Shown here: in pieces, positions 13,117-46,032 of the stretch | Position numbering within the stretch: position 1 is the first letter of the stretch | Layout of the letters: each line of letters begins with the position of its first letter | The notes under the pieces: generated by a model | Database searches by the model: none | What the model was told of the DNA's origin: nothing | What the model saw: only the letters and a program-made list of their open reading frames with translations | Source of the DNA: Paralichthys olivaceus | Taxonomy: Eukaryota; Chordata; Actinopteri; Pleuronectiformes; Paralichthyidae | Direction: 5' to 3' | Assembly: GCF_024713975.1 (NCBI RefSeq) | Contig: NC_091094.1 | Span: 303,501-367,500, forward strand | DNA length: 64,000 nucleotides | Made by a program: the position numbers and the translations under genes

Positions 13117-13130
13117 ATAGATATATAAAG
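13085..13130. repeat. Perfect 14-bp inverted repeat at the left satellite edge
   Basis: CTTTATATATCTAT (13085-13098) pairs with ATAGATATATAAAG (13117-13130). Inner ATCAG/CTGAT extends the stem. The right arm is the start of the first satellite monomer. Confidence 0.85.
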
Positions 13131-16100
13131 AGGGTCTGATCCTGTTTAAACCATAGATATATAAAGAGGGTCTGATCCTGTTTAAACCATAGACTGTATA
13201 TAAAGAGGGTCTGATCCTGTTTAAACCATAGACTGTATATAAAGAGGGTCTGATCCTGTTTAAATCATAGATATATAAAGAGGGTCTGATCCTGTTTAAA
13301 CCATAGACTGTATATAAAGAGGGCCTGATCCTGTTTAAACCATAGATATATAAAGAGGGTCTGATCCTGTTTAAACCATAGATATATAAAGAGGGTCTGA
13401 TCCTGTTTAAACCATAGATATATAAAGAGGGTCTGATCCTGTTTAAACCATAGACTGTATATAAAGAGGGTCTGATCCTGTTTAAACCATAGACTGTATA
13501 TAAAGAGGGTCTGATCCTGTTTAAACCATAGATATATAAAGAGGGTCTGATCCTGTTTAAACCATAGACTGTATATAAAGAGGGTCTGATCCTGTTTAAA
13601 CCATAGACTGTATATAAAGAGGGTCTGATCCTGTTTAAACCATAGATATATAAAGAGGGTCTGATCCTGTTTAAATCATAGACTGTATATAAAGAGGGTC
13701 TGATCCTGTTTAAACCATAGACTGTATATAAAGAGGGTCTGATCCTGTTTAAACCATAGACTGTATATAAAGAGGGTCTGATCCTGTTTAAACCATAGAC
13801 TGTATATAAAGAGGGTCTGATCCTGTTTAAACCATAGACTGTATATAAAGAGGGTCTGATCCTGTTTAAACCATAGATATATAAAGAGGGTCTGATCCTG
13901 TTTAAACCATAGACTGTATATAAAGAGGGTCTGATCCTGTTTAAACCATAGACTGTATATAAAGAGGGTCTGATCCTGTTTAAACCATAGACTGTATATA
14001 AAGAGGGTCTGATCCTGTTTAAACCATAGATATATAAAGAGGGTCTGATCCTGTTTAAACCATAGATATATAAAGAGGGTCTGATCCTGTTTAAACCATA
14101 GATATATAAAGAGGGTCTGATCCTGTTTAAACCATAGATATATAAAGAGGGTCTGATCCTGTTTAAACCATAGATATATAAAGAGGGTCTGATCCTGTTT
14201 AAACCATAGATATATAAAGAGGGTCTGATCCTGTTTAAACCATAGACTGTATATAAAGAGGGTCTGATCCTGTTTAAACCATAGACTGTATATAAAGAGG
14301 GTCTGATCCTGTTTAAATCATAGACTGTATATAAAGAGGGTCTGATCCTGTTTAAACCATAGATATATAAAGAGGGTCTGATCCTGTTTAAACCATAGAT
14401 ATATAAAGAGGGTCTGATCCTGTTTAAACCATAGACTGTATATAAAGAGGGTCTGATCCTGTTTAAACCATAGACTGTATATAAAGAGGGTCTGATCCTG
14501 TTTAAACCATAGACTGTATATAAAGAGGGTCTGATCCTGTTTAAACCATAGACTGTATATAAAGAGGGTCTGATCCTGTTTAAACCATAGATATATAAAG
14601 AGGGTCTGATCCTGTTTAAACCATAGACTGTATATAAAGAGGGTCTGATCCTGTTTAAACCATAGACTGTATATAAAGAGGGTCTGATCCTGTTTAAATC
14701 ATAGATATATAAAGAGGGTCTGATCCTGTTTAAACCATAGATATATAAAGAGGGTCTGATCCTGTTTAAACCACAGACTGTATATAAAGAGGGTCTGATC
14801 CTGTTTAAACCACAGACTGTATATAAAGAGGGTCTGATCCTGTTTAAACCATAGATATATAAAGAGGGTCTGATCCTGTTTAAACCATAGACTGTATATA
14901 AAGAGGGTCTGATCCTGTTTAAACCACAGACTGTATATAAAGAGGGTCTGATCCTGTTTAAACCATAGACTGTATATAAAGAGGGTCTGATCCTGTTTAA
15001 ACCATAGACTGTATATAAAGAGGGTCTGATCCTGTTTAAACCATAGACTGTATATAAAGAGGGTCTGATCCTGTTTAAACCACAGACTGTATATAAAGAG
15101 GGTCTGATCCTGTTTAAATCATAGATATATAAAGAGGGTCTGATCCTGTTTAAACCATAGACTGTATATAAAGAGGGTCTGATCCTGTTTAAATCATAGA
15201 TATATAAAGAGGGTCTGATCCTGTTTAAACCATAGACTGTATATAAAGAGGGTCTGATCCTGTTTAAACCATAGACTGTATATAAAGAGGGTCTGATCCT
15301 GTTTAAATCATAGATATATAAAGAGGGTCTGATCCTGTTTAAATCATAGACTGTATATAAAGAGGGTCTGATCCTGTTTAAACCATAGATATATAAAGAG
15401 GGTCTGATCCTGTTTAAATCATAGACTGTATATAAAGAGGGTCTGATCCTGTTTAAACCATAGACTGTATATAAAGAGGGTCTGATCCTGTTTAAACCAT
15501 AGACTGTATATAAAGAGGGTCTGATCCTGTTTAAACCACAGACTGTATATAAAGAGGGTCTGATCCTGTTTAAACCATAGACTGTATATAAAGAGGGTCT
15601 GATCCTGTTTAAACCATAGACTGTATATAAAGAGGGTCTGATCCTGTTTAAACCATAGATATATAAAGAGGGTCTGATCCTGTTTAAACCATAGATATAT
15701 AAAGAGGGTCTGATCCTGTTTAAACCATAGACTGTATATAAAGAGGGTCTGATCCTGTTTAAACCATAGACTGTATATAAAGAGGGTCTGATCCTGTTTA
15801 AACCATAGATATATAAAGAGGGTCTGATCCTGTTTAAATCATAGACTGTATATAAAGAGGGTCTGATCCTGTTTAAACCATAGACTGTATATAAAGAGGG
15901 TCTGATCCTGTTTAAACCATAGACTGTATATAAAGAGGGTCTGATCCTGTTTAAACCATAGATATATAAAGAGGGTCTGATCCTGTTTAAACCATAGACT
16001 GTATATAAAGAGGGTCTGATCCTGTTTAAACCATAGATATATAAAGAGGGTCTGATCCTGTTTAAACCATAGATATATAAAGAGGGTCTGATCCTGTTTA

Positions 16101-19100
16101 AACCATAGACTGTATATAAAGAGGGTCTGATCCTGTTTAAACCACAGACTGTATATAAAGAGGGTCTGATCCTGTTTAAACCATAGACTGTATATAAAGA
16201 GGGTCTGATCCTGTTTAAACCATAGACTGTATATAAAGAGGGTCTGATCCTGTTTAAACCATAGATATATAAAGAGGGTCTGATCCTGTTTAAACCATAG
16301 ATATATAAAGAGGGTCTGATCCTGTTTAAACCATAGACTGTATATAAAGAGGGTCTGATCCTGTTTAAACCACAGACTGTATATAAAGAGGGTCTGATCC
16401 TGTTTAAACCATAGATATATAAAGAGGGTCTGATCCTGTTTAAATCATAGACTGTATATAAAGAGGGTCTGATCCTGTTTAAACCACAGACTGTATATAA
16501 AGAGGGTCTGATCCTGTTTAAATCATAGACTGTATATAAAGAGGGTCTGATCCTGTTTAAACCATAGACTGTATATAAAGAGGGTCTGATCCTGTTTAAA
16601 CCATAGACTGTATATAAAGAGGGTCTGATCCTGTTTAAACCATAGATATATAAAGAGGGTCTGATCCTGTTTAAACCATAGACTGTATATAAAGAGGGTC
16701 TGATCCTGTTTAAACCACAGACTGTATATAAAGAGGGTCTGATCCTGTTTAAACCACAGACTGTATATAAAGAGGGTCTGATCCTGTTTAAATCATAGAT
16801 ATATAAAGAGGGTCTGATCCTGTTTAAACCATAGACTGTATATAAAGAGGGTCTGATCCTGTTTAAACCATAGACTGTATATAAAGAGGGTCTGATCCTG
16901 TTTAAACCATAGACTGTATATAAAGAGGGTCTGATCCTGTTTAAACCACAGACTGTATATAAAGAGGGTCTGATCCTGTTTAAATCATAGATATATAAAG
17001 AGGGTCTGATCCTGTTTAAACCATAGACTGTATATAAAGAGGGTCTGATCCTGTTTAAACCATAGACTGTATATAAAGAGGGTCTGATCCTGTTTAAATC
17101 ATAGATATATAAAGAGGGTCTGATCCTGTTTAAATCATAGACTGTATATAAAGAGGGTCTGATCCTGTTTAAACCATAGATATATAAAGAGGGTCTGATC
17201 CTGTTTAAATCATAGACTGTATATAAAGAGGGTCTGATCCTGTTTAAACCATAGACTGTATATAAAGAGGGTCTGATCCTGTTTAAATCATAGACTGTAT
17301 ATAAAGAGGGTCTGATCCTGTTTAAATCATAGATATATAAAGAGGGTCTGATCCTGTTTAAACCATAGACTGTATATAAAGAGGGTCTGATCCTGTTTAA
17401 ACCATAGACTGTATATAAAGAGGGTCTGATCCTGTTTAAATCATAGATATATAAAGAGGGTCTGATCCTGTTTAAATCATAGACTGTATATAAAGAGGGT
17501 CTGATCCTGTTTAAACCATAGATATATAAAGAGGGTCTGATCCTGTTTAAATCATAGACTGTATATAAAGAGGGTCTGATCCTGTTTAAACCATAGACTG
17601 TATATAAAGAGGGTCTGATCCTGTTTGAACCATAGACTGTATATAAAGAGGGTCTGATCCTGTTTAAACCATAGACTGTATATAAAGAGGGTCTGATCCT
17701 GTTTAAACCATAGACTGTATATAAAGAGGGTCTGATCCTGTTTAAACCATAGATATATAAAGAGGGTCTGATCCTGTTTAAACCATAGATATATAAAGAG
17801 GGTCTGATCCTGTTTAAATCATAGACTGTATATAAAGAGGGTCTGATCCTGTTTAAACCATAGACTGTATATAAAGAGGGTCTGATCCTGTTTAAACCAT
17901 AGACTGTATATAAAGAGGGTCTGATCCTGTTTAAACCATAGATATATAAAGAGGGTCTGATCCTGTTTAAACCATAGACTGTATATAAAGAGGGTCTGAT
18001 CCTGTTTAAACCACAGACTGTATATAAAGAGGGTCTGATCCTGTTTAAACCATAGACTGTATATAAAGAGGGTCTGATCCTGTTTAAATCATAGACTGTA
18101 TATAAAGAGGGTCTGATCCTGTTTAAACCACAGACTGTATATAAAGAGGGTCTGATCCTGTTTAAATCATAGACTGTATATAAAGAGGGTCTGATCCTGT
18201 TTAAACCATAGACTGTATATAAAGAGGGTCTGATCCTGTTTAAACCATAGACTGTATATAAAGAGGGTCTGATCCTGTTTAAACCATAGATATATAAAGA
18301 GGGTCTGATCCTGTTTAAACCATAGACTGTATATAAAGAGGGTCTGATCCTGTTTAAACCATAGATATATAAAGAGGGTCTGATCCTGTTTAAACCATAG
18401 ATATATAAAGAGGGTCTGATCCTGTTTAAACCATAGACTGTATATAAAGAGGGTCTGATCCTGTTTAAACCATAGACTGTATATAAAGAGGGTCTGATCC
18501 TGTTTAAACCATAGATATATAAAGAGGGTCTGATCCTGTTTAAACCATAGACTGTATATAAAGAGGGTCTGATCCTGTTTAAACCATAGACTGTATATAA
18601 AGAGGGTCTGATCCTGTTTAAACCATAGACTGTATATAAAGAGGGTCTGATCCTGTTTAAATCATAGACTGTATATAAAGAGGGTCTGATCCTGTTTAAA
18701 CCATAGATATATAAAGAGGGTCTGATCCTGTTTAAATCATAGACTGTATATAAAGAGGGTCTGATCCTGTTTAAACCATAGACTGTATATAAAGAGGGTC
18801 TGATCCTGTTTAAACCACAGACTGTATATAAAGAGGGTCTGATCCTGTTTAAACCATAGATATATAAAGAGGGTCTGATCCTGTTTAAATCATAGACTGT
18901 ATATAAAGAGGGTCTGATCCTGTTTAAACCACAGACTGTATATAAAGAGGGTCTGATCCTGTTTAAATCATAGACTGTATATAAAGAGGGTCTGATCCTG
19001 TTTAAACCATAGACTGTATATAAAGAGGGTCTGATCCTGTTTAAACCATAGACTGTATATAAAGAGGGTCTGATCCTGTTTAAACCATAGATATATAAAG

Positions 19101-20183
19101 AGGGTCTGATCCTGTTTAAACCATAGATATATAAAGAGGGTCTGATCCTGTTTAAACCATAGACTGTATATAAAGAGGGTCTGATCCTGTTTAAACCATA
19201 GATATATAAAGAGGGTCTGATCCTGTTTAAACCATAGACTGTATATAAAGAGGGTCTGATCCTGTTTAAACCATAGACTGTATATAAAGAGGGTCTGATC
19301 CTGTTTAAACCATAGACTGTATATAAAGAGGGTCTGATCCTGTTTAAACCATAGACTGTATATAAAGAGGGTCTGATCCTGTTTAAACCATAGACTGTAT
19401 ATAAAGAGGGTCTGATCCTGTTTAAATCATAGATATATAAAGAGGGTCTGATCCTGTTTAAATCATAGATATATAAAGAGGGTCTGATCCTGTTTAAATC
19501 ATAGATATATAAAGAGGGTCTGATCCTGTTTAAACCATAGACTGTATATAAAGAGGGTCTGATCCTGTTTAAACCATAGACTGTATATAAAGAGGGTCTG
19601 ATCCTGTTTAAATCATAGATATATAAAGAGGGTCTGATCCTGTTTAAATCATAGATATATAAAGAGGGTCTGATCCTGTTTAAACCATAGACTGTATATA
19701 AAGAGGGTCTGATCCTGTTTAAACCATAGACTGTATATAAAGAGGGTCTGATCCTGTTTAAATCATAGACTGTATATAAAGAGGGTCTGATCCTGTTTAA
19801 ACCATAGACTGTATATAAAGAGGGTCTGATCCTGTTTAAACCATAGACTGTATATAAAGAGGGTCTGATCCTGTTTAAACCATAGACTGTATATAAAGAG
19901 GGTCTGATCCTGTTTAAACCATAGATATATAAAGAGGGTCTGATCCTGTTTAAACCATAGACTGTATATAAAGAGGGTCTGATCCTGTTTAAACCATAGA
20001 TATATAAAGAGGGTCTGATCCTGTTTAAACCATAGACTGTATATAAAGAGGGTCTGATCCTGTTTAAACCATAGATATATAAAGAGGGTCTGATCCTGTT
20101 TAAATCATAGACTGTATATAAAGAGGGTCTGATCCTGTTTAAACCATAGACTGTATATAAAGAGGGTCTGATCCTGTTTAAAC
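13117..20183 (+). repeat. Satellite array of about 7.07 kb with 36/39-bp monomers
   Basis: The array repeats [A/T]CATAGA(CTG)TATATAAAGAGGGTCTGATCCTGTTTAAA without a break. Long monomers (39 bp) carry ACTGTATAT, short ones (36 bp) ATATAT, a 3-bp difference. A second variable site is CCAT/TCAT/CCAC. By length there are roughly 185 monomers. Substitutions outside these sites are very rare (for example TTTGAACC near 17624, GGGCCTG near 13321), so the array is young or actively homogenised. Variant order recurs in blocks (see findings). No open frame is present. Confidence 0.97.
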
Positions 20184-20273
20184 GTGTTGGTGGTAAAAAG
20201 AACGAAAGTAAATGAGGACATCACGCTCGTCTCCTCTTTACTCACGATGTCCTGAAATCACCGGTGGTTAAAA

Positions 20274-20294
20274 CTCTTTATATACAGTCTATGG
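20274..20294 (-). repeat. Single inverted copy of the satellite core beyond the array
   Basis: CTCTTTATATACAGTCTATGG is the exact reverse complement of the satellite core CCATAGACTGTATATAAAGAG. It lies 90 bp to the right of the array end. Confidence 0.9.
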
Positions 20295-20465
20295 GTTCAA
20301 CTGTGGCTTCAACTCGGAGTCACTGTTCATTCAGCTGCTGAGAAGCTCAAACGTAAACAATGTGCTGACCTGAACTTATGGATTCATCTTTATATCTATA
20401 TATCTAATATTTTTGTTCCCACCCATGTCACCGGATGGGCACCGTACGTCACAGCTGAACACGGA

Positions 20466-20745
20466 GAATAAACCTTTAGTTTAATTTAGTTTTATTTATT
20501 TAATATAGTTTTATTTATTTAATATAGTTTTATTTATTTAATTTATCTTATTTAATATAGTTTTATTTATTTAATATATCTTATTTAATTTAGTTTTATT
20601 TATTTAATTTATCTTATTTAATATAGTTTTATTTATTTAATATATCTTATTTAATTTAGTTTTATTTGCTTTATTTGTTTATTTATCATATTTAATTTAG
20701 TTTTTTTATTTATTTATTGTATTATATTTAGTTTTATTTATTTGA
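20466..20745. repeat. AT-rich degenerate tandem repeat (TTTAGTTTTATTTATTTAATAT)
   Basis: Irregular copies of TTTAGTTTTATTTATTTAATATATCTTA, low complexity. Confidence 0.8.
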
Positions 20746-20848
20746 ATCAAGGGTCTGAATTGATGACGTCATGTTAAACGTTGGATGATGATTATTTGGT
20801 GACGATGTTTTATTTATTATTTTATTTTAAATTACGCAGTTTACAAAA

Positions 20849-21003
20849 AGGATCCTTGTCCCCGGTCTGTCTCATTAACAGGATCCTTGTCCCCGGTCTG
20901 TCTCATTAACAGGATCCTTGTCCCCGGTCTGTCTCATTAACAGGATCCTTGTCCCCGGTCTGTCTCATTAACAGGATCCTTGTCCCCGGTCTGTCTCATT
21001 AAT
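20849..21003. repeat. 31-bp minisatellite, five copies
   Basis: Unit AGGATCCTTGTCCCCGGTCTGTCTCATTAAC occurs five times, identical except for the last base or two. Each carries a BamHI-type GGATCC. Confidence 0.95.
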
Positions 21004-21984
21004 CATTCAGTTTGTTTCTTATTTAGTCGTGTTGCTGTGTCCTGTGTTCAAAATAGTTTCAAGGAGAAAACTTGTCTGTTTCTGTTTCATCAATGAAATA
21101 AAATATCCAGACAAGTCTTGACAGGGACATTAAAACAAAATTTAATATATTTATATACAATTAAAATGTATTTTTAACATAATGACGGCGAATAACGATG
21201 CATGTTGTGAAATTAACGAAAGATTGGATTAAAAAAACACTTGAGACAAAAGAAAACAGGAAGATTTTATAAAAAACAAATCTTCAATCTGATGAGATTC
21301 ATTTCATTATATTATGAGATTCAAGTCAGAAAGTCCGAACTAAATCTTTTGTTGGAACCTGATCTTTTTAAATTCAATCGGGACAAAGACTCTGGAGAAG
21401 AGAACATTTTGCGTTTCGACACAGAAATTTGAAGTTTTGAAGAGAGAAGATAATTTTCTTCACTTTAACGTTAGAAGGAGATTTACCTTTAGTCCAACAG
21501 GTGATTGTTTGTCAGTGAAGTTTAAGTGAATGAAGAAAGAGAAAGAAGAAAAAAAGAACAGGAGAAATATTGTTTTTCAATTCAAGTTTATTTTTTAGTG
21601 CAAATGATACAAAAGAAGATGAAAATGAAAGTTAATTAAAAACAGCTTCTTTCTCTGAGAATCTGAACCTGAACGACTTCACTGCAGCAGAAAATATTCA
21701 CATTTTATATATCGTCAGTTTGTCCATTAAAAACAAAGATCAGGTTTATTTAGAATCTACATTGTGTGTTCTCAGGGTCAGAGGTCAGACTGTACTGTTC
21801 ACCACTCGTCTTCTCCACCAGGGTTCTTTCAGTTACAGTTCAAACTCTTCACGTTTCACCAGACTCCGTGAAAAAATATACAGATTTTCAAAAATCATTT
21901 CTACTGGTAAAAAAAAACATCAATCCACTTTGTGAGTCGTCACAATCATTCATCATACGAGACACAAGTTATCGTACAAACGTT

Positions 21985-22160
21985 AGAACGATGTACAAAC
22001 ATGCTAATGATCGTACAATCACAACGACTGTACAAACATGCTAATGATCGTACAATCACAACGACTGTACAAACATGCTAATGATTGTACAATCACAACG
22101 ACTGTACAAACATGCTAATGATTGTACAATCACAACGACTGTACAAACATGCTAATGACA
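21985..22160. repeat. 37-bp minisatellite, about 4.5 copies
   Basis: Unit GTACAAACATGCTAATGATCGTACAATCACAACGACT; copies differ at GATC/GATT. Confidence 0.92.
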
Positions 22161-22205
22161 GAAACATCTGGAGCAGAGCAGAAACATCTGGAGCAGAGCA
22201 GAAAC

Positions 22206-22670
22206 ACCCCGGTCACAAACTCTTTGAGACCCTCCCTCTGGCAGGAGGCTGCGGTCCATCAGGACCAAAACCTCACACCACAAGAACAATTTTTCTCATC
22301 CACTACTAGTCTCATCAACAAGGCCCCGCACCCACCCTGACACTCCTTCACACTCCACCTCTGCCTCCATATGTCACACTGACACTGCATTCACTACTCT
22401 ATGCGTTACATTAACGCTCAGCTTTATGCTTTCATATTGGAAATACTCTGCATACTGTGAACACTATAATTACCCAGCTGTACTGCTCTTCTTATTTTTT
22501 TTACCTTTAAAAATATACTGTGTATATATTTGTATTGTCAAATTTAAATTTTCTTATCTTCTTATGTTTAGAGATGCCTGACATGCACCAACAAAACCAA
22601 AACAAATTCCATGTATGTGTAAAAAACTAACTTGGCAATAAAACCCTTTCTGATTCTAAAGAGTCTTGAG
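22206..22670 (+). mobile_element. LINE 3' end (ORF2 C-terminus plus 3' UTR)
   Basis: GGCTGCGGTCCATCAGGACCAAAACCTCACACCACAAGAACA through CTCATCAACAAGGCCC is the conserved end of a fish LINE ORF2 (RSIRTKTSHHKNNF..LINKA pattern after frameshifts). The 3' UTR ends ACTTGGCAATAAAACCCTTTCTGATTC. It is dead: the frame is broken and only the tail is present. Confidence 0.65.
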
Positions 22671-23634
22671 ATCATGTATAGTAGGATTTGGCACATTTCA
22701 AATAAAACTGAATAATATGATTTAAAAACATGAAGTTCACTCTAATTTGTAAAATGATTTGTTCAGTTCAACATTCACAGTTTGAACAACACTGTGCAAC
22801 ATGTTTGAATGTTAATGAGTCCAGGGCTGCGTTCAAATAGTCCATTTAGGAACCTTAACTGAGTGAGCTGTCTGAATTCTCTACATGAGGAAAACAGATT
22901 CAATAGTTCCAAACTTATCTCCTTTAACAAAGGACACACTGGATCATCCTTTAGGAAAGGAAATAAGGAATTATCTTCCAACAATTCATTCAGCAACATT
23001 TAAAGTGATCCTACATCTTAGATGCACCAGGACACGCCCACATAAATACAAAATAAACAGCTACTGACCGGATCCACAACTGACGTGAATCCTCGTCTGT
23101 CTGAGCTCATGAAATCATCTTCGCAACTAAAAGAATGTCAGCAAAATGTTTTCTCCATTTCTCTTCCTCATGTAATTATATACATAATTACACGTTTCAC
23201 CAGTTGTATTTTCATTTTCAATAGAATCTATCTTTGCTGTTATTTCTTTGAGTAATTGTTTCCTATGAACTGAAAACATCTTTTATCAAGATGTGTCAAT
23301 CGGCTAAAGAATTTACTATAACTATAATTTGACTGTAAAGTTTCTGTCTCAGTTTCAAACTTCACTGAAAAGGAACAGTGGTCAGATCGATATTTGAACA
23401 CACCAAAATATGTATTCGACTGTACGACTGTCCCTGAACATATCGCTGTTATTTAGTATTTTGAACAATGAAATGTTCAAACTCTTCAGATGTTTAACAC
23501 CTAACTCCGCCTCCTGCATGTATATAAATGAGGTAACCTGAGCTGTGATTGGCTGTTCCTCACGGCCTTTATTGAACTGATTACCATAGAAACTGAAAAC
23601 ACAGTCAAGATTAAATCAAACATCCTGAGGAAAC

Positions 23635-23640
23635 TTTATT
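23635..23640 (-). terminator. snrpb polyadenylation signal AATAAA
   Basis: TTTATT on the plus strand, 65 bases past the snrpb stop on the minus strand. The very short 3' UTR fits a compact housekeeping gene. Confidence 0.7.
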
Positions 23641-23704
23641 TAAAAAAAACAAACAAGATTTAAAAAAAGTCTATACAATAGGTGAGTGAGGGGGCGGAGC
23701 CTCT

Positions 23705-27264
<3,560 letters not shown>

Positions 27265-27531
27265 GTCTGCGGCTCTGATGGCGCCGATATCCGCAGGATT
27301 CACCGAACTGACCCGCAAATGAATCTGCGGGATTCTCCAGGCCCGTCTTTACCGGCAGCTACAGGATGTGACGTACGGGAATTGTGTCACAGCGGAACCA
27401 CTCCCCCGAAACGGAGAGCAGATAACAGGTTCCTGTAGCACCAGTGGTTCAAAGTAACTGAGTACTTTTACTCCACTACTGGACACTAACAGTTACAGCA
27501 CAGACACTGAACTGAAAAAGTACACCCGAAA

Positions 27532-31373: not shown

Positions 31374-31376
31374 ATC

Positions 31377-31680
31377 TCTGCTCTCCATCATCACTCGGAG
31401 ATTTCCCGTCATCCCGCTGCAGGCTGGTTTCCATAGTAACCCAGCTCCCGCCGCCGGCCGCGCGCCGCAGTGAGACGGAGGAGAGACATGAGTCACCGAC
31501 ATCAGCACGGCAGCGACCGACCACCGACATCCCGACAACCGACAACCGACAGACCAGACTCCGCTTATACGTTAGCATGTTAGCATGTTAGCTTCCCGCT
31601 GCTGTCAGCCACAGGAGGCGCGAGACGACGATGGACTGTTAATGAGGCTGGAGACGATGCACGAGCTGCACAGGGTGACT
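31377..31680 (+). promoter_or_regulatory. CpG-rich island between two arrays, candidate first exon/promoter of the RNF182-like gene
   Basis: Sharp jump to GC-rich single-copy sequence (CCGCCGCCGGCCGCGCGCCGC at 31448) flanked by arrays on both sides. It ends GAGCTGCACAGG|GTGACTGC near 31672-31680, a usable donor. Downstream, the coding start at 34912 follows an acceptor-like CAACAG. A 5' UTR exon here spliced over the arrays is an inference. Confidence 0.4.
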
Positions 31681-32635
31681 GCAACACACAGACACACACA
31701 TATACACACAGACACACACAGACACACAGACACACACAGACACACACAGACACACACAGACACACAGACACACACAGACACACACATATATACACACAGA
31801 CACACACATATACACACAGACACACACATATATACACACAGACACACACATATACACACAGACACACACAGACACACAGACACACACAGACACACACATA
31901 TATACACACAGACACACACATATACACACAGACACACACATATACACACACAGACACACACAGACACACACAGACACACACATATACACACAGACACACA
32001 CATATATACACACAGACACACACATATACACACAGACACACACAGACACACACATATACACACAGACACACACATATACACACAGACACACACACACACA
32101 CACACACATATATACACACAGACACACACACACACACACATATATACACACAGACACACACAGACACACACATATATACACACAGACACACACATATACA
32201 CACATATACACACACAGACACACACAGACACACACATATATACACACAGACACACACATATACACACACAGACACACACAGACACACACATATATACACA
32301 CAGACACACACAGACACACACATATACACACACAGACACACACATATATACACACAGACACACACATATATACACACAGACACACACATATACACACACA
32401 GACACACACAGACACACACATATACACACAGAAACACACACATGTACACACAGACACACACACATATACACACAGACACAAACATATATACACACAGACA
32501 CAGACACACAGATACACACACAGACAAACACACACAGATACACACACACAGACACACAGATACACACACAGACAAACACACACAGATACACACACACAGA
32601 CACACAGATACACACATACAGACACACACTGTATA
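31681..32635. repeat. Compound (CA)n/(CACAGA)n/(TATACA)n array
   Basis: About 950 bases of CACACAGA, CACACATATATACACACAGA and related steps, purine/pyrimidine alternating nearly throughout. All long reading frames here (CVCV or THRHT type) are artefacts. Confidence 0.97.
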
Positions 32636-34103
32636 TAAAGACCATCACTGACTGTATATAAAGACACTGACTGTATATAAAGACACTGACTGTATATAAA
32701 GACGATCACTGACTGTATATAAAGATGATCACTGACTGTATATAAAGATGATCACTGACTGTATATAAAGACACTGACTGTATATAAAGATGATCACTGA
32801 CTGTATATAAAGACGATCACTGACTGTATATAAAGATGATCACTGACTGTATATAAAGACACTGACTGTATATAAAGATGATCACTGACTGTATATAAAG
32901 ACGATCACTGACTGTATATAAAGACGATCACTGACTGTATATAAAGACGATCACTGACTGTATATAAAGATGATCACTGACTGTATATAAAGACACTGAC
33001 TGTATATAAAGACCATCACTGACTGTATATAAAGACACTGACTGTATATAAAGACGATCACTGACTGTATATAAAGACACTGACTGTATATAAAGACCAT
33101 CACTGACTGTATATAAAGACGATCACTGACTGTATATAAAGACGATTACTGACTGTATATAAAGACGATCACTGACTGTATATAAAGACCATCACTGACT
33201 GTATATAAAGACGATCACTGACTGTATATAAAGACACTGACTGTATATAAAGACGATCACTGACTGTATATAAAGATGATCACTGACTGTATATAAAGAC
33301 GATCACTGACTGTATATAAAGACACTGACTGTATATAAAGACACTGACTGTATATAAAGATGATCACTGACTGTATATAAAGACCATCACTGACTGTATA
33401 TAAAGACGATCACTGACTGTATATAAAGACACTGACTGTATATAAAGATGATCACTGACTGTATATAAAGACCATCACTGACTGTATATAAAGATGATCA
33501 CTGACTGTATATAAAGACACTGACTGTATATAAAGATGATCACTGACTGTATATAAAGACCATCACTGACTGTATATAAACACACTGACTGTATATAAAG
33601 ATGATCACTGACTGTATATAAAGATGATCACTGACTGTATATAAAGATGATCACTGACTGTATATAAAGATGATCACTGACTGTATATAAAGACGATCAC
33701 TGACTGTATATAAAGACGATCACTGACTGTATATAAAGACGATCACTGACTGTATATAAAGATGATCACTGACTGTATATAAAGACGATCACTGACTGTA
33801 TATAAAGACGATCACTAACTTTATATAAAGACCATCACTGACTGTATATAAAGATGATCACTGACTGTATATAAAGATGATCACTGACTGTATATAAAGA
33901 CGATCACTGACTGTATATAAAGACGATCACTAACTTTATATAAAGACCATCACTGACTGTATATAAACACACTGACTGTATATAAAGATGATCACTGACT
34001 GTATATAAAGATGATCACTGACTGTATATAAAGACACTGACTGTATATAAAGATGATCACTGACTGTATATAAAGACGATCACTGACTGTATATAAAGAT
34101 GAC
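32630..34103 (+). repeat. 19/23-bp satellite sharing the GACTGTATATAAAGA core
   Basis: Units CACTGACTGTATATAAAGA (19 bp) and CACTGACTGTATATAAAGAYGAT (23 bp) alternate irregularly for about 1.45 kb. The core GACTGTATATAAAGA is identical to that of the 13.1-20.2 kb array, but the linker is unrelated. Confidence 0.96.
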
Positions 34104-34911
34104 TCCTCTAATTGGCCCATCTGAAGTTCAGGCACAGGTTAAGCTGTTGCCGTAGCAACATTAGCATCCTGAATACGTTTAGGTTAGCTTAGTTTAGCTA
34201 AGGTTAGCTTATCTTAGGTTATCTTAGCTAAGGTTAGGTTAGGCATTCAGTGTGGATGGTTGTTACCCTTATTGTTGAGGTAAGGGGTTGGGAAATGTAT
34301 TATGTCAATAAGAGTCACTAAGATAGAAACACAAACGTGTGTGTGCTCAATAAATTGAAAGTTATGAATCTAACTTTATCAATAAAAAACAAACCTTTCT
34401 CTCTCTCTGTGATTAGCAGAAACCAACCAATCAGGTGATTTTGAAACAGGCCTCAGTTGTAATAACGTTTATTTTTGTATTTTATCTTTAAGCCTCAGCC
34501 AGTTGCTGGATGTTGAATGGTTTCGGGTTGTCAGTCCGTCCGTCCCACTCTCGTTTACACAGTATCTCAAGGGTTAGGGTGAGAATGCTTTGAGGGAATT
34601 TCTTCACATCTGTCACAAACATTCACTTTGACCCGAGGATGAGCTGAATAGAATTTGGTGACCAGAGGTCCAGGTCACGGTGACCTCAGGTCCCTGTGAC
34701 CTCAGGTCCCTGTGAATGGGATATTTAAGGACTGCAAGTAGGGAATTTCGTTACATCTGGCACAAGTCACTTGGACTCATGGATGTGATTAGAATTTATA
34801 TTTATCTGTTTGTTTCTATTATTGTCCGTCAGGTGACGGACTCAGATTGAGTTAAGCTCCACCCACTCTGGCCCCTCCCTCTTGCTTAAGGTGAAGACGA
34901 CAGCCAACAGA
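34104..34911. other. Presumed 5' UTR/intron of the RNF182-like gene with a dispersed repeat
   Basis: 34150-34240 has TTAGCTTAGGTTA-type runs. 34525-34770 matches a dispersed fish motif (GTCCGTCCCACTCTCG..TATCTCA..GAGGGAATTTCTTCA..AGAATTTGGTGACCAGAGGTCCAGGTCA) with several AGGTCA-like half-sites. No coding sequence. Confidence 0.45.
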
Positions 34912-37900
34912 ATGAGCCAGCTGAAGGAGGCGGAGCCTTGTCGGGAGCTGGAGGGCAAGGTGAGATTTCCCATCATCCTTCACTGCAGCATTACCTCTTA
35001 CAGAATATCTCCCCCTGCTGCTTCTGTGCAAACTGACAGTTTCAATCAATCATCACATTTGATTTGTCTCATATTCAGTTTGTCTCATCGGTGTCAACAA
35101 GCAGCAACGTCCTCTGTCCTTAACTGAAATAGAGTCAAACTACAGAGACACTTTCTGAGCAGTAACTGAAGCTCAGAGTCTCATGTGAGGATCCGTCTCC
35201 AGGACACGAGGACAATAGATGCTGATGAACTGAAGACATCAACACAACAACAGATTCACTACATTAGAAGAAACAGTTTGTGACTTCCTGTTTAAAGTAT
35301 TTGTACATGAGGACATGTCTGATAGAGATGAAGGAGCAGACACATGAACTGTGGAGTTACTGATGAAGATGAGGAGACATGTTGTGTATCCACAAGTCTG
35401 GTTGTGATCATGGTCCAGGATCATCTGACACCATCAGGATCCACCATTACGATCGCTTATCTGCCGTCCACCATCATGATCTATGGTCCATGATCAAACG
35501 ATGAAGCAGCAGAACTCTGGTGAAGAAGTCACGTCAGTAACGTGTTGATGAGACATTAATGTGATGAAGAGGGAGAGAAGGAAAGAGAAGCTCCATGTGT
35601 CCTCAACATTCTAGACGTCCAGCAGCAGAACTAAGAGCAGATCCAAGACTTCATCATGGAGGAAGGTTTGAATCTTAAACGTAGAGAGGGAGTCTGCCTC
35701 TAGAACTGAACCTGAGATGATTCCACAGGAGAGGAGCTTGTGCTTTAAGCTCTGGCTCCTCCTCTACTTGTAGACTTTGAGGGAGAACAGACTGAATTCT
35801 GGGAGCTCAGAGCTCGAGTAAACGTCTCACTGCTGGAGCCTGATAATAAGGAAATACAATAATCAAGTCTGGATGTTTCAAAGACCTGGACTAGTTTTTC
35901 TGCATGTTTTAGAGACATGTCTGATTTTGGATGTTACTTAAGTGAAAGTACGCAGTCCTAGAAATGTGTTTTAAATAACACATTCCTGATGTTTCGTTGG
36001 AAGCGAGGGTAAAGTCATCAAGTGCAGCTTCTTCATTAGAGAATGTATCTCTAAGGTGTTGAGGGCCGAGTATTAGAACCTCTGTCTTATCTGAGTTTAA
36101 TCATCCAGGTTTTTATGTCCTTGAGACATGAAGTTTACTTCATTGATTAACAGGACGAGGACAGACACAAACATCTGAAGCTTTGAGAAGGTCAGTAGTG
36201 ACTTTAACCAGACTGTCTCTGTGGTGAGTTCTAAACCTCAACTGAAAGTCTTCAGATTACTTTCCTGGAGAAACTCACACGCTGATTGATAACAACCTTC
36301 TCGAGGATTTTAGACAGGAAGGGGCGGTTGGATGTTCTGTTATTTGGTGCGTTCGACTTGATGCAGCTCTGCGTAGCGTTGACTTAACGTGATGCATGCT
36401 GGACTAAACACAATTGGAATTAGACTTTTTGTCCGCCTCCATCCAGGGCTGCAAAATGTCACCAGGTCAGGTGACTTTAAAACATGTTGGGAGTGAGCCA
36501 GCTGCAGTCAGACAGATGTTCTCCTCCAGCTGCAGCACCTTGGGACCAACTCTGGGACGACACAACTCTGCTCTGATTGGCTGAAGGCTTCACTGACATG
36601 CATGACATATATTGTTTTTATTTGAACAATTCAGATAAGTTTCCTGCTCCATATATTCATAAATGTACGGTGTAAAACCTAAACCCTCTTTTTGTACCTA
36701 TAGGAACATCCTCTTACCTTGTGATAAAAAATTAAAAAAAAAAAAAATATATATATATATATATGTATATAAACAGGTGCAGAGCTGGGCTCAGTCACTG
36801 GTTTACACTTTGGAGGAGCTCGAGTGTAAAATCTGTTACAACCGTTACGACACTCGCAGCAGGAAACCGAAGCTCCTGGGATGTTTGCATCGAGTCTGCG
36901 CCAAGTGTTTGAAGAAGATGGTCGACATGGGTGAGTGGAGCTAAAGGTGAACAACACTGACGCTCGCAGGTGAATTATTAGGCTCATGTTCTCATGACGT
37001 GTCTGACACTGACCAATCAGAGGTCACAGAGCACCTGACCAATAACTGTCCAGTATGATGCAGCCAATTAGATGCAACATTAACCCTCTGATTATAAAAC
37101 CATCATATTACTCCTTTCTGATTGGTTATCAGGAGAGTCGTCACCCTCTGTCATCAGCTGTCCATTCTGTCGCCATGAGACGCACGTCCCCGAGGAAGAG
37201 GTGAGCTGACCTTTCTGATGAGGTGAAAGACCCCTCCCCTTTTCTTCTAACCCCTAGTCTGACTCCACCTCTTCTTCTTCCTCCTCCTCCTCTTCTTTTT
37301 GTTTTTCTTTCTCAGGTGTGGTTAATGGAGGATGACCGACACATTCTGGCCGTTTTGTCGTGTCAGGACCGAGCTCGGCGTGGGGGAGGAGGAGGGGGAG
37401 AGGTGGTGTTGAGTCCGTCTAGTCTCACCGGTGAAAAAACTTCTGTTAATTAATGAAGCATTTTATTTGTTTGTTTGTTTATGAAGTTTATGTTTTTTGT
37501 TTGTCTGTCATGTTTCTACGTCTGTGATGAGTTAACGTGAGTGAATGTGTTGTGTCAGCAGGGGGCAGCGTGGAGGCGTCGCACCGCTCCTCAGACTGTC
37601 TGGTCATCACCATCATGGAACTTCCTGAGTCATCGCCATCGTCGGACTCACTGAGCACGCTCAACGTGGTGGGCGTGTACCGCCCCCCCAGCCTCGACTC
37701 GCTGCCCTGTCACCTGCCCCCCCACAAGTGTCACAGCTGGACGTCCCGCAGTTTCCCTCGCTGCCTGCTGGGGGCACTTTGTCTGGTCAGTACGAGAGCA
37801 GCGGCAGTCATAGCAGAGAGTGTTTGTGTGTGTCTGTCTGTGTGTGTTTGTGTGTGTGACCTTGTCGTTGGATGTGTACAGGTGTTCTTCAGCTCGCTGC

Positions 37901-38064
37901 CTCTGGGGATTTATCTGCTGATGATTGGTCAGCTGTGGTTGGGCGTCGTCCTCGTCAGTTTGGTTCCGTCGACGCTGCTGCTCCTGGTCGTCTACGGCTT
38001 CTGTCAGTGTCTCTGCCACGAGGTGATGGAGGCACTCGCCACACGCACACACACGCTGCCATGA
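34912..38064 (+). CDS. RING-type E3 ubiquitin ligase with two membrane spans, RNF182-like
   Basis: Six coding exons: 34912-34959, 36777-36930, 37133-37200, 37316-37430, 37562-37785, 37882-38064; 263 aa (human RNF182 247). A C3HC4 RING uses C33, C36, C52, H54, C57, C60, C77 and C80 ([17 protein letters not shown]). The middle has [17 protein letters not shown] and YRPPSLDS as in RNF182. Two C-terminal hydrophobic spans follow, [18 protein letters not shown] and [21 protein letters not shown], with CQCLCHE after. RNF182 is an E3 known to target V-ATPase subunit c (ATP6V0C). As I recall, human RNF182 is coded in one exon, so this six-exon gene may be a separate paralogue; hence no symbol. A glycine run in exon 4 is unusual. 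Exon 5 has a NAGNAG acceptor. An AATAAA lies at 38865. Confidence 0.85.
35640..36345 (-). mobile_element. Decayed LINE reverse-transcriptase fragment in the RNF182-like gene intron
   Basis: The minus strand reads [19 protein letters not shown] near 36270-36335 and [17 protein letters not shown] near 36050-36102, both typical of fish LINE RT domains. In between and beyond, frames are broken. It lies antisense to the host gene. Confidence 0.7.
36737..36772. repeat. Poly-A plus (AT)n tract next to exon 2 acceptor of the RNF182-like gene
   Basis: A13 and (TA)n run to within a few bases of AAACAG|GTGCAG. The acceptor therefore has no pyrimidine tract; it reads ATATGTATATAAACAG. Confidence 0.7.
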
Positions 38065-38339
38065 CTACACCAACCATGAATTCAACACACGCCGCCATGA
38101 CGATGACAACACAACATGCCGCAATGACGATGCAAGAACAATTACATTGCACACTAACAGTGTTGCCATAGCAACAACCACACGACACTGTCACACGATC
38201 ACCTGTTGACCCACCTCTGACACCGCCCCATCTAAAAACCAGCATTACTACAGCCAATCACAGAAAGGAGGCGGAGTCTGAAGATCAGGACTGAATTATG
38301 AATCGTCCTCCGGAGTGACCTGATCAATGTCTGAGATCA

Positions 38340-38610
38340 GGACTGAAACATCCAAGGCTGTTAGCTTAGCTTAGCACAAAGTCTGGAAGCATGGGCAAAC
38401 ATTAGCCTAGCTTAACAGGAAGACTGAAAGCATGGGAAACTGTTAGCCTAGCTTAGCACAAATACATAAGCATTGGAAACTGTTAGCCTAGCTTAGCAAA
38501 AAGACTGGAAGAAAAGTCAACAGGTTACCTAGCTTAGCAGGAAGATTAAAAGCAGGGGAAACTGTTAACCTTGAGCTACTTGTGCTAAGCTAGGCTAACA
38601 TTCCTGGATT
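38340..38610. repeat. Tandem copies of a dispersed GCTTAGC repeat, 3' of the RNF182-like gene
   Basis: About four imperfect copies of TTAGCTTAGCACAAAGACTGGAAGCATGGGAAACTGTTAGCCTAGC, a motif common in teleost genomes. Confidence 0.75.
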
Positions 38611-39557
38611 GGACTCTGGAGAGTTGGATTTCGTTTACGGTTTATGTCTCTATAAAGTGCCATCATTTGATTTAATGTTTGAATTATGAATCTTGTGATG
38701 ATGATTTTGGTAATGATGATGATGATGATGATGATAGTCAGCTGATCATAAGGGCACACTGATGGTCAGCTGACCTGTTTTATCACTTCCTGTCTGTGAA
38801 TCAGATTAGTTTCCTTAAAAAAGTCAAAACAACTACAGACATGACCGTTCACAGTTTAACTTTGAATAAAGTTAAAATCCCTAACATGACATTTTAGCTT
38901 AGCTTTAGCTTTCACGGTGTTTAATCTTCGAAGCTAACGCCTGTAAAACTAACAGTTAGCATTATGTATCATTATAGCTTAGCTACAAGTGGAGAGTTAG
39001 GGGCATATTGGTGTTTAGCTTAGCTTTAGCATTAGCTAATCAATATTAGTTTAGTATTGATTGTATGATTATGAAAATTATCATTATTTTTATTATCATC
39101 ATTATTACAGCTCGTTGATGTTAGCACTGTTAGCATCATAGAGGCAGACTATTAAGAGTCTGAAGGTTTAATTATCTTTATTTCATTAAACATGAGAACA
39201 TGAACTCTCTGACCTCTGACCCGGGTCAGTCTATATTTAACCTGACGTGACGCTGTCGACCTGCACAGCTGAGACGGAGGTGTTTACCTGTGAGGCAGAA
39301 CTGAGGGTAAAATAAAGAGTCTTGTGGGAGAGGTTCAGGTGTCAGCTGTTAATTAAAAACACTGATGATCCCTGGAGTCGAAGAGGAAGAAGACGAGTGT
39401 TGATAGAAACCTGAACGATTGTCGTTCACACAAACAGACTCAGCTGATCGACAGCAGGTGAGTTTTATTCTTTATTCTACAATTTACTTTAGTCAAATGA
39501 CTTGAAAAGAGATTTAATCTTATCTTTTAATTAGTAGAGTTAAATATATATATGTAC

Positions 39558-39600
<43 letters not shown>

Positions 39601-40063
39601 TATACATATATGATAACAATTGATGAACTACTATCTATATGATATATTATAATATAATAAATAATACTATAATTTGACATCATATGAGTCATGAAGCAGG
39701 ATCTACAGACAGGTCCTCACCTGTCTGTCCTGCAGGACATTTATTTCAGGCTGTTTTTGATTTTGTCTGTGACTCATCGGCTTGTGTTGTTTGGTTTATG
39801 TTGTTGAATGTTTCAGGATCAGAAAGTCTGAGAGCAAACGAGTCGTCATGTCTGTCGACTGATGCTGATCCTTGTTCTGACGTCAGGTATGATCACATTT
39901 ATAATTCAGATAAAACACTGATACTATATTTTGTGTATTATTATTATATGAGTTATTGAACAAATTTAGTTGTTTGATGGAACAAAAAATGAGTTGAATC
40001 AACCGTCATATTTTACATGTCGGGTTCAAACAGCTGTAACTGATCCACACACCTGATGACATC
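38611..40063. other. Intergenic region with candidate 5' exon of the R7BP-like gene
   Basis: Contains an AATAAA at 38865 (likely 3' end of the RNF182-like gene), GTTAGC-rich sequence, and a (TA)n tract at 39545-39612. GATCGACAGCAG|GTGAGT near 39448-39465 could be the donor of an untranslated first exon. No coding sequence. Confidence 0.4.
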
Positions 40064-41819
40064 ATGAGCCGGTGGCGTCATTCAGTGGACGAGCTGGCAG
40101 CGCGGCGCCGACAGCAGAGCGAGTGTGAGCGCGCTCAGGAGGCTTTCAGTCGGGTCACTTCCTGTTTCCAACAGCTGGCAGCGTCGCTTGGCAGCTCAGC
40201 TGACTGCAGCTTCCTGAGAGACGAGATGGACGAGACGAGAGCGCTCGCTCACCGGATCTGCTGCGGTAACCACGCCCCCTAAGCCCCCCAACACCACACC
40301 TACATACACACCCACACAAACCTGTTCACTACACACCTGTCTGTGTCCAGGTCTGTCACAGCGTCTGATGCGTCTGTTGTCAGGCAGTGACTCCACCCCC
40401 TCAGATGACAGACAGGTGTCGGAGCGTCTCTGGGTTCTCTTTCTATCTGCGCTGGAGAACTTCTTGTCTGACCTCCGTAAAGCGCGTGATCTGATTGGAC
40501 AGTTCCCTCTGACTCAGCGCTACGACAGACGCATGTTGGTTAACACAGGTCAGCTGATCATCTGTGATTGGTTCAATCATTTGACACTTCTTTACTTCCT
40601 GTCTGAATCTCTGATCAAATCACCTGAAGCTCAAGTTACACGTTTCTTTAAGGAACTTCACCTCTCTCTCTCTCTCTCTCTCTCTGTCTCACACCTGTCT
40701 GACCTCTCTCTCTCTCTCTGTCTCACCTCCCTGACCTCTCTCTCTCTCTCTCTCTCTCTCACACCTGTCTGACCTCTCTCTCTCTCTCTGTCTCACCTCT
40801 CTGACTCTCTCTCTCTCACACCTGTCTGACCGCTCTCTCTCTCTCTCTCTCTCTCACACCTGTCTGACCTCTCTCTCTCTCTCTGTCTCACCTGTCTGAC
40901 CTCTCTCTCTCTCACACCTGTCTCACCTCCCTGACCTCTCTCTCTCTCTCTCTCTCTCTCACACCTGTCTGACCTCTCTCTCTCTCTCTGTCTCACCTCT
41001 CTGACTCTCTCTCTCTCACACCTGTCTGACCGCTCTCTCTCTTCTCTCTCTCTCTCACACCTGTCTGACCTCTCTCTCTCTCTCTCACACCTGTCTGACC
41101 TCTCTCTCTCTCTCTCTGTCTCACCTCCCTGACCTCTCTGACTCTCTCTCTCTCTGTCTCACCTATTTGACCTCTCTCTCTCTCTCTCTCTCACACCTGT
41201 CTGACCGCTCTCTCTCTCTCTCACACCTGTCTGACCTCTCTTTCTCTCTCTCTCACCTGTCTGACCTCTCTCTTTCTCTCTCTCTCTCACACCTGTCTGA
41301 CCTCTCTCTCTCTTTCTCTCTCTCTCTCTCACACCTGTCTGACCTCTCTGACTCTCTCTCACTCACACCTGTCTCACCTGTCTGACTCTCTCTCTCTCTC
41401 TCTTTTCTCTCTCCTGTCCAGGGTGCATGGATGGTGTGGTGGGCGTGGCCGCCCGGGTGGCATTAGTCCAGGTGCCATGGCTCACCTTAGAGGAGGAGTC
41501 AAGTCCTGATCTAACCAATCACATCTCTGGACTGGAGTCGATGCTGAGTGAGATGCAACTGAGGGTGAGAGAGAACCAATAGATCGTTTTGCTTTACAAT
41601 GAGAATCTGACCGTCCATATTTAAACGTGTGGCGTTCTACAGGTGCCTGTTGCGTTCTGGTCTGTGGAGGCGACTCAGCCGGCCTGGGTCGAAGGTCGCG
41701 GGGAAGTGGATGAGCCAGATGACACCCTGGAGGATCTGATGGAGGTCGAGGTTGTTGCTAACAACAACATTGCCGCCTGCTGCCACCCGCCGTGCTGCGG
41801 ACTGGGCTGTGTTGGGTAG
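40064..41819 (+). CDS. R7-RGS membrane-anchor protein family member (RGS7BP/RGS9BP-like)
   Basis: Four exons: 40064-40265, 40351-40548, 41422-41564, 41643-41819; 239 aa. The helical core matches the R9AP/R7BP family in order: AFSRVTSCFQQLAASLGSSAD, LRDEMDETRALAHRIC, RLWVLFLSALENFLSDLRKA, FPLTQRYDRRMLVNTG, and ISGLESMLSEMQL near the end. These proteins hold RGS7-family/Gbeta5 complexes at membranes and speed Galpha deactivation in neurons and photoreceptors. The core is nearer RGS9BP (LWV.F, FPL, LV.TG), but the C-terminus has no membrane span; it ends in a cysteine cluster (C227, C228, C232, C233, C237), as in the palmitoylated tail of RGS7BP. So orthology is left open. Intron 2 is a 0.75-kb CT-rich repeat. 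AATAAA at 41982-41987. Confidence 0.75.
40660..41415 (+). repeat. CT-rich polypyrimidine array filling intron 2 of the R7BP-like gene
   Basis: Irregular units of (CT)n plus GTCTCACACCTGTCTGACC, about 30-60 bp each, nearly all pyrimidine on the sense strand, ending just before the CTCCTGTCCAG acceptor. Confidence 0.95.
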
Positions 41820-43028
41820 AGGGGGTAGTTCAACTCATCTTTATTCATAGAAACAGGAAGCAGAATTAATATCAATCAACAAATCGTTGCCAATGACCAC
41901 TGACATCATCATCATGACATCGCTGACGAGGAATCATTCTCATGTCTGTTCAAACTAAATGTTCAATATTTTAAACCAAGTAATAAAATGAAGTTATAAC
42001 AGAAGGTATGAAGTTATTTCCAACAAAGGTTGTAAAATGTTTCATATAAACATCAGCGATGACAATCCTGACATGAGAGGAAATATTTTTTAGATAAAAC
42101 TTTAAACGTGATATTTATGTGAATGAAGAGGAAGTAAAAACTGTCAGTGACTGCAGAAATATTGCTTCATGGCAAGAACAGCTGATCAGAGTTTGTCGGA
42201 ACTGTCCCAACTAAAGGTTCTTGAGCTTTTGACGGTTTGACATGAGATGCGTTCGAGGTGGACTTGATCTGACTGAGTCTCGATCCTCTGACGCCGGCAG
42301 AGTTAAAAACACAGATGTCAAGTCAGACACTTTCAACTTCTCGTATCGTCAGTGAGACGAGATGAACAACGAAGTTGACTGAGAACTTTGTTTCAGATGA
42401 AAATTAAACTACAGTGTAAAGTGACCCTGTGTGGAGAGAAATAATTCTTCTGTATTAATCAGCACATAAGAAAATAAGACAAGAAATAACAGAAACACTG
42501 CCAGTGGTTGTATAGCTCCACACAATATGTTTATATATATATATCTTATAGCACTGTACATGGATATACGGAGCGTCATGAAGCCTTCAGCCAATCAGAG
42601 CAGAGTTGTGATGTCACCGGTGCAGCAGCTTGAGATCAGGTTTTTTTTTAGTCATGTGAGCTGGTGATGTTTTGCAGCGCTGGATGAAATCTGATAAAAT
42701 ATTAACCAGCATGCATTGTGCTCAGAGCAGCATGCATCATATTAAGTCATTGCTGCATCAACGCACCTGACGTCTTCATCTGAACACCTGATCCAGCTAC
42801 TTCACTTCACTAGAGGGCTGATGGGAGATGTAGTTCTTTTGCCCATGAATTTTTTTTCTTCTGGTACATAAATGTCTTATTTTATCACTTTAAGACACTG
42901 GAAATTCAAACAAAAGAGCCGTCACAGTGTTGAATTAAGAACTTTATTTAACATAAAAATATTGTACAAACAGACGTTACACAGACAGAAAGAGATGAAG
43001 AAGAAGAAGAAGAAAATGTGGAGCTGCT
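41820..43028. other. Convergent intergenic region between the R7BP-like gene and ube2c
   Basis: 3' UTRs face each other: AATAAA on plus at 41982 and AATAAA on minus at 42943-42948. The space between is AT-rich with nothing recognised. Confidence 0.5.
42943..42948 (-). terminator. ube2c polyadenylation signal AATAAA
   Basis: TTTATT on plus, about 80 bases past the ube2c stop on the minus strand. Confidence 0.7.
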
Positions 43029-45081
<2,053 letters not shown>

Positions 45082-45237
45082 GACTGAGTGATCCGGGTCC
45101 TGCTGGACAGAGACAAAGACCGGGTCAGAAACCGGGACAGAGTCGGAAGCACCGCGCTCACGGCTCCGGTCCCCGGTAGTCAGCAGCTAAACGTTAGTGA
45201 TATAGCAGTGAACAATATCCCCAGAACTGTCCATCTG

Positions 45238-45345
45238 AGCCCGGTGTCTCTCCACGGACAGCCCGGTGTCTCTCCACGGACAGCCCGGTGTCTCTCCACG
45301 GACAGCCCGGTGTCTCTCGACGGAAAGCCCGGTGTCTCGTAACGG
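45238..45345. repeat. 22-bp minisatellite upstream of ube2c
   Basis: About five copies of CCGGTGTCTCTCCACGGACAGC; the last copies change to CTCGACGGAAAGC and CTCGTAACGGACAG. Confidence 0.93.
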
Positions 45346-45898
45346 ACAGTGCTAACGGATCCGGTTAAGTCGCTTGTTAGCATCTGATTTCAGCTTTAGC
45401 TTTAAGCTAAAGACGGTGAGCTAGCGGCAGGCTAACGTTAGCCCCGCTATTAGCCTGTTCACGACTGACGCCACTCAGCGGACTCACGTGCCACTTCCTG
45501 GCGGATACACCGGCACAGATCCCGGGTGATCCCGGTGCTTGAACCCGGCGTTTAAACCCACTGGAACCGGCGGTACTCACCGTGTCCGGGAGTCCGAGTC
45601 CGAGCTGCGTCTGTCGGATTCAAACCGAGCACTCTGCCGCCCCCCAGTTTAAACTGACACTCCGTCACAGGCGCAGCCAATCAGCGCCAGACTTTTAAAA
45701 ACAAACCACCTCCTACTGACCAATGAGAAGAGGGAGAACGGTGGGAACCGCGCTGTTATTGGACAGGAAGAACTTCCGTAACGTGACATCACAGAGTGGA
45801 AACAAGCAATGATTGGCTCCTGCCCGCATGGGGGCGCTCCTCGTCTGGACTCTGACAACAGAAGAAGACGAAGGCGCCGGAAGTCGTGATGTTATTTT

Positions 45899-46032
45899 GA
45901 AGTCTGTGCTCGTTTCTTTATTTACAGTCTGCTCGTTTCTTTATTTACAGTCTGCTCGTTTCTTTATTTACAGTCTGCTCGTTTCTTTATTTACAGTCTG
46001 CTCGTTTCTTTATTTGCAGTCTGCTCGTTTCT
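45899..46032. repeat. 23-bp minisatellite at the polr2j 5' end
   Basis: Nearly six copies of TCTGCTCGTTTCTTTATTTACAG, ending 12 bases before the start codon, so probably within the 5' UTR or core promoter. TTTATTTACAGTCTG is close to the reverse complement of the satellite core. Confidence 0.93.

Follow-up and report, generated by a model that had tools for sequence, protein, structure and literature searches.

Core-bearing arrays in the window

The window analysed here is a stretch of 64,000 nucleotides of the Paralichthys olivaceus genome (588 Mb in 25 contigs), corresponding to positions 303501-367500 of contig C2. A polr2j-like first exon lies at 46045-46185 (PF13656, E 2.6e-4, below the PF13656 cut-off), just downstream of a short tandem array. 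This array and the other features related to a common core motif, GACTGTATATAAAGA, are the following:

13084-13131, no strand: left-edge palindrome of array 1, with 21-nt arms (95% complementary) and a spacer of 6 nt
13122-20183, plus strand: array 1, TRF period 39, 185.8 copies
20274-20293, minus strand: single inverted copy, CATAGACTGTATATAAAGAG, with the exact inverted 15-mer at 20275-20289
32627-34099, plus strand: array 2, TRF period 23, 66.6 copies (TRF start 32628)
45907-46032, minus strand: polr2j-side array, TRF period 23, 5.5 copies

The original prediction, made from the window alone, held that one core had seeded several arrays with different linkers, that an inverted copy of it was present and that the body of a dispersed repeat occurred three times; the arrays, the inverted copy and the body copies are all confirmed in the window sequence. 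Array 1 consists of 39-bp units, CCATAGACTGTATATAAAGAGGGTCTGATCCTGTTTAAA, intermixed with 36-bp units that lack CTG and a few other variants, and GTTTAAAC, a word of the form GT....AC, mostly occupies the 8 bases 5' of CATAG. The palindrome at its left edge is composed of an inverted core copy and the first, decayed unit. In array 2, units of 23 bp and 19 bp are mixed, in which the core is joined by YGATCACT or CACT; the linkers of both arrays are those that had been proposed.

When up to two mismatches are allowed, the window contains 197 copies of the core, compared to a mean of 0.17 and a maximum of 2 in 100 dinucleotide shuffles; arrays 1 and 2 both contain it, as claimed. The two arrays have a 15-bp word in common, while the longest word common to two letter-shuffled units in 20,000 trials was 12 bp; by shared word length they nevertheless rank only third among 171 pairs, drawn from 19 arrays that were chosen by hand from the TRF list, behind two pairs with 25 and 16 bp. 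The 25-bp word is shared, in inverted orientation, by arrays at 24815-24902 and 60875-61727, which are 36 kb apart, have a 13-bp unit (GTCATGTTGTGTA and TACACAACATGAC, respectively) and represent a further array family that recurs in the window. The 16-bp word belongs to two 34-bp arrays at 40670-41400 and 49607-50897, which are rich in CACCTGTC. Minisatellites are crowded between 12366 and 61727 of the window, with 94 TRF rows, in a region located 0.30-0.37 Mb from the start of C2. Scans for Rfam families and tRNAs found no matches in the window.

For the polr2j-side array, a related repeat had been predicted. Four units indeed carry the core on the minus strand with a single mismatch, and a fifth carries it with two, but the membership of this array in the core group, judged by its 15 + 8 layout and its mismatched core, is weak and has to be considered uncertain.

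The core as a terminus of dispersed transposons

Exact matches to the core number 6,598 in the genome (3,769 + 2,829), compared to three for the reversed control, and CATAGACTGTATATA is found 874 + 794 times, with one match for its control. Among the matches listed, 68 loci were examined for the core, and 39 single sites and one array for CATAGACTGTATATA, nearly all of them on contig C1. They place the core at the terminus of transposons that are dispersed in the genome. In one family, the sequence continues from the core as TGGACGACATGACAGCTCCCC..., and the body of the predicted dispersed repeat follows 54-67 bases from the first base of the core. At that distance and with up to four mismatches, the body is present in 10 of the 56 core copies checked on C1, which bears out the proposal that the core forms the end of this family. 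Three old fragments of the body family lie in the window, with the body 22-mer 6 to 40 bases from where it had been placed:

8604-8682, minus strand: body 22-mer at 8609-8630, one mismatch
47980-48097, plus strand: body 22-mer at 48029-48050, one mismatch; its end, GTCCTCCATCTTTAT, is by eye a decayed inverted core
49262-49333, plus strand: body 22-mer at 49303-49324, exact

A second family, family B, is 2,563-2,576 bp long, carries the core at its left end, begins with CATAGACTGTATATAAAGATGGACGTAG and finishes with TGTTGCCGCTTG. Three young copies are 97.3-97.8% alike, and all three are flanked by perfect 8-bp duplications. The ends of family B (CATAG.../...GCTTG) are not inverted, and the copy in locus L072 contains no open reading frame of at least 120 amino acids. 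A derivative of 676 bp (L068) is likewise bordered by a perfect 8-bp duplication, and in L038 the body-family end stands opposite another end type at a distance of 691 bp, without a matching duplication. L038, L043 and L057 contain inverted cores, and among the copies that carry one at their far end only L043 has a perfect duplication. The core thus terminates more than one family, and its link to the body is borne out.

Neither the body nor the core had matches in viral and prokaryote collections; 18-mer matches in two bacterial contigs were taken as chance. A search of literature text for sequence words returned a single match with an unrelated title.

Solo remnants between 8-bp direct repeats

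Many core-type ends are not attached to an element. In 36 of 80 distinct ends, only 17-22 bp of the end are present with an 8-bp direct repeat on each side (7/8 or 8/8 alike, perfect in 27 of the 36); these are referred to as solos. Random re-pairing of left and right flanks in 200 shuffles yielded a mean of 1.5 solos and a maximum of 5. The length is close to fixed: 28 solos have 20 bp, while 17 bp (1), 18 bp (3), 19 bp (2), 21 bp (1) and 22 bp (1) are rare. A typical solo is CATAGACTGTATATAAAGAG, bracketed by copies of one 8-mer, as in GTTACAAC (L049) and GTTGTTAC (L066). AAAGAG finishes 27 of the 36 solos, AAAGATGG is found in 20 of the 44 other ends, and none of the 80 sampled ends belongs to a young two-ended donor with AAAGAG. 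The duplications of the solos follow the pattern GT....AC (G in 29, T in 23, A in 25 and C in 25 of 36). The 8-mers in front of the 44 non-solo ends show the same pattern (G in 30, T in 34, A in 28 and C in 26), which suggests that one machinery acted on both.

The set of 80 comprises ends that start with C[A/G]TAG or CACAG, cores with other first bases being excluded. Also excluded were 12 loci with the same flanks as L003 (L004-L015), the arrays L033 and L104, longer pieces of sites already in the set and flanks of the window (L071-L074 and L077-L084), and two fresh sites outside the range used (L075 and L076). Loci L003-L015 (C1:0.08-0.92 Mb) represent 13 copies of a repeat of at least 1.4-3 kb, 98-100% alike and present in both orientations, which all carry one solo with the duplication GTCTGAAC; here the solo was amplified passively with its host repeat.

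The single inverted copy at 20274-20293 resembles a separate solo. Its flanks, GGTTAAAA (20266-20273) and GGTTCAAC (20294-20301), are alike by eye in 6/8 bases, which is below the 7/8 cut used for solos, and it is probably an old solo. For this reason, 20137-20301 (DNA fold z -6.9) is no longer taken to be a small element whose ends are inverted.

Arrays with a period of 28 bp

Tandem pairs of the core in the same direction, with 0-30 bases in between, occur 4,442 times in the genome, and the reversed-pattern control gave none. The predicted genome-wide excess of core-containing arrays is therefore evident against the reversed pattern. Among periods of 24-38, the search covered exactly 28, which was found in 41 pairs, all of them listed; no peak at 28 is implied by this count. 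All 41 pairs fall within six loci:

C1:7.767 Mb: linker GTRAGAAG
C1:30.113 Mb: linker GTTCGGAC
C2:4.271 Mb: linker GTATGATC
C4:8.846 Mb: linker GTAGCCAC, one pair
C5:15.602 Mb: linker GTCGTACC, three consecutive pairs
C6:3.665 Mb: linker GTTATAAC

All six linkers are 8 bp long, differ from each other and start with GT. Flanks were read at two of the six loci: the array at C1:7.767 Mb has its own linker at both its beginning and its end, and the array at C1:30.113 Mb has it at the right edge, while the left edge is decayed. Because six loci have six linkers and the unit equals a 20-bp solo plus a duplication-like 8-mer, these arrays point to six separate nucleations.

Array 2 behaves differently from this. 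Arrays with its unit and linker also lie at C1:29.998 and C1:30.311 Mb; their flanks differ by eye, and at one of these two loci the array adjoins an apparent body-family remnant (L127). Since the unit is present at three loci, array 2 is a satellite that has spread and offers no proof of a local event.

Relationship to P and hAT elements

The target consensus of the fly P element is GTCCGGAC. Several features of the transposons described above recall P elements, in particular the 8-bp duplications at family B, L068 and the solos and the GT....AC preference within them. Terminal inverted repeats are less uniform, with inverted cores in L038, L043 and L057 but non-inverted ends in family B. P-type transposases are described to cut 17 nt inside the element end (PMC7776569), and solo lengths of 17-22 bp would be compatible with such a staggered cut. 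The 8-bp duplications of hAT elements are of the type NTNNNNAN (PMC3878927), which GT....AC also fits, and hAT therefore stays a candidate. If the solos are excision footprints, their near-fixed length of 20 bp would contrast with the random, hairpin-derived footprints of hAT elements. The transposon group thus appears to resemble P elements, with P as the presumed superfamily and hAT as a second candidate. The array unit contains part of a transposon whose other copies are dispersed and bear the hallmarks of transposition, a trait of transposon-derived minisatellites.

A proposed path from transposon end to tandem array

These observations are probably best explained, in our view, by a P-element-like transposon terminus that gives rise to solos, which in turn provide a period-28 seed for arrays with the local duplication as linker. 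The core, found at element ends (CATAGACTGTATATAAAGA...), would belong to a group of DNA transposons resembling P elements, whose activity would leave a solo, usually 19 nt of one end followed by G, between two 8-bp target copies of the form GT....AC. We infer that the solo is a scar, formed when a staggered-cut transposase departs and the ends are ligated directly. Ligation of staggered donor ends would keep 17-20 nt of one end between the duplications, and the common solo can, in our own reading, be divided into 19 nt from one end and the G that closes the other. Together with its two target copies, a solo would be a ready direct repeat with a period of 28 (20 + 8), which slippage or unequal exchange between the target copies may multiply. 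The linker of an array would then be the local target duplication, and each array would be expected to have a linker of its own. Array 1 may follow the same rule with a 31-bp remnant plus GTTTAAAC. Array 2 would have been seeded by the same end before it spread; a reading of its unit as 15 + 8 is only suggestive, as the linker YGATCACT is not of the GT type. Overall, the original prediction is supported, and the explanation of the linkers by solos and target duplications, which formed no part of it, would account for their differences.

Two predictions of simple excision failed, as neither other-end solos nor palindromic two-end scars were found. The other end of family B has 135 exact matches in the genome, seven of them on C1, where none of the seven is a solo because each has a core-type end 0.26-2.6 kb away in the same orientation (duplications were checked for four of the seven). 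Family B as the solo donor is therefore unsupported. The palindrome ACTGTATATACAGT occurs at 43 genome sites, compared to 10 for the reversed control, and mostly away from core-like ends. Among the 41 of these sites that were examined, three have flanks that agree in at least 6/8 bases, compared to a mean of 0.26 and a maximum of 3 after shuffling, but CATAG/CTATG ends are absent from all three.

These failures are accommodated by a different origin of the solo, namely as an insert rather than a scar: a cut-off end of about 20 bp would integrate alone in an abortive transposase event and produce the duplication directly, and arrays would grow in the same way. The near-fixed length and sequence of the solos (28 of 36 at 20 bp, 27 with identical last five bases) and their mostly perfect duplications agree with this, as do the GT....AC preference, which matches that of full elements in degree, and a C-A preference outside the target that is somewhat stronger on one side. 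Against it, the inner junctions of the solos range over 17-22 bp with intact duplications, which resembles end joining, and we know of no mechanism by which a single 20-bp end is integrated with a clean duplication. We regard an insert as rather unlikely, though as a serious competitor. The statement that covers both origins is one towards which we lean slightly: a transposase either inserts or leaves behind a 20-bp, near-fixed piece of one end between 8-bp target copies, the resulting 28-bp unit serves as a minisatellite seed, and one genome displays the stages (solo, two-copy pair, four-copy run, 29-core array and spread satellite), each period-28 array being barcoded by its own duplication.

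Arrays might also arise by repeated (double) insertion into the same target, as is reported for fly P elements, with unequal exchange as a second step. Tandem P elements with junctions of the size of target duplications are indeed described (PMC9659126), and the two-copy locus on C4 fits either account, but units of 20 bp would need several insertions and several reductions to equal length at each site, which makes this route improbable here. A last reading takes the core for an ordinary satellite word that moved from locus to locus as satellite DNA (e.g. through circles) and matches transposon ends only secondarily. It is partly true of the 23-bp unit with its three loci and differing flanks, but as a general account it is highly improbable, because dispersed copies stand at element ends with target duplications, the six period-28 linkers are all different and the listed arrays share neither linker nor flanks.

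Comparison with known systems

Tandem transposons joined at target duplications are known from flies, reportedly through a study by McGurk and Barbash. In these elements (PMC9659126), the target duplication forms the junction between units and marks a route from transposon to satellite, as proposed here. The fly units are whole elements, or slipped dimers of the target duplication alone, whereas the present units contain a fixed 20-bp remnant of the end. In Xstir and other satellites derived from MITE ends (PMC9659126), the unit also stems from a terminal repeat, but these repeats ride within the element and lack a linker made of a locus-specific target duplication. Galileo, a Drosophila member of the P superfamily (PMC3573991), likewise has solo-TIR copies and tandem repeats inside its terminal repeats. 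It differs in that these terminal repeats are hundreds of bases long, that target copies have 7 bp and that the tandem unit of about 210 bp lies within the element instead of combining a remnant with a target duplication.

The zebrafish P-like element Pdre2/THAP9 (PMC10983969) generates 8-bp target duplications, as do the transposons described here. Its end, CATACCTGTCAAC, and the present end, CATAGACTGTATA, both begin with CATA and have CTGT in common. The ends of Pdre2 are inverted, in contrast to family B, which is without notable inverted ends, and the available text of PMC10983969 describes neither solos nor arrays for Pdre2. Its subterminal repeat TGTTTAAACCAA (PMC10983969) matches array 1 units in 11 of 12 bases; with at most one mismatch it was counted 148 times in array 1 and at a single other place in the window, while 166 kb of other loci contained no copy. 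The resemblance, TGTTTAAACCA in array 1, may be a coincidence, because it overlaps the presumed duplication GTTTAAAC. The only perfect match to TGTTTAAACCAA in the window lies at 47870-47881, and a fragment of the body family follows after about 110 bp.

Transposon-derived satellites, fly P tandems at target duplications (PMC9659126) and the solo TIRs of Galileo (PMC3573991) are thus already known. A description of arrays composed of a remnant plus a duplication was not found in one open-access library, with queries that were not specific to this layout. As far as this search shows, the near-fixed class of 20-bp remnants and the arrays of a remnant plus its own 8-mer are new.

Significance and distribution near chromosome ends

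How a minisatellite is born can rarely be seen, since old arrays no longer preserve their own start. If the proposed sequence of events is true, several brackets of an end remnant and a copied 8-mer grew separately and show how repeat arrays originate. With a linker in the form of a target duplication, the seed, the single-copy state and the first duplications could be compared at independent loci of a single genome and in related species, which would make the start of short direct-repeat expansion directly testable. It would also show a transposon that still shapes a site from which most of the element is gone.

A separate observation concerns the right end of family B, which recurs in steps of about 32.3-32.6 kb near the ends of four contigs (C4:28.04-28.07, C8:27.54-27.64, C10:24.55-24.59 and C13:25.24-25.30 Mb). 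This spacing suggests a giant tandem unit that is common to these chromosomes.
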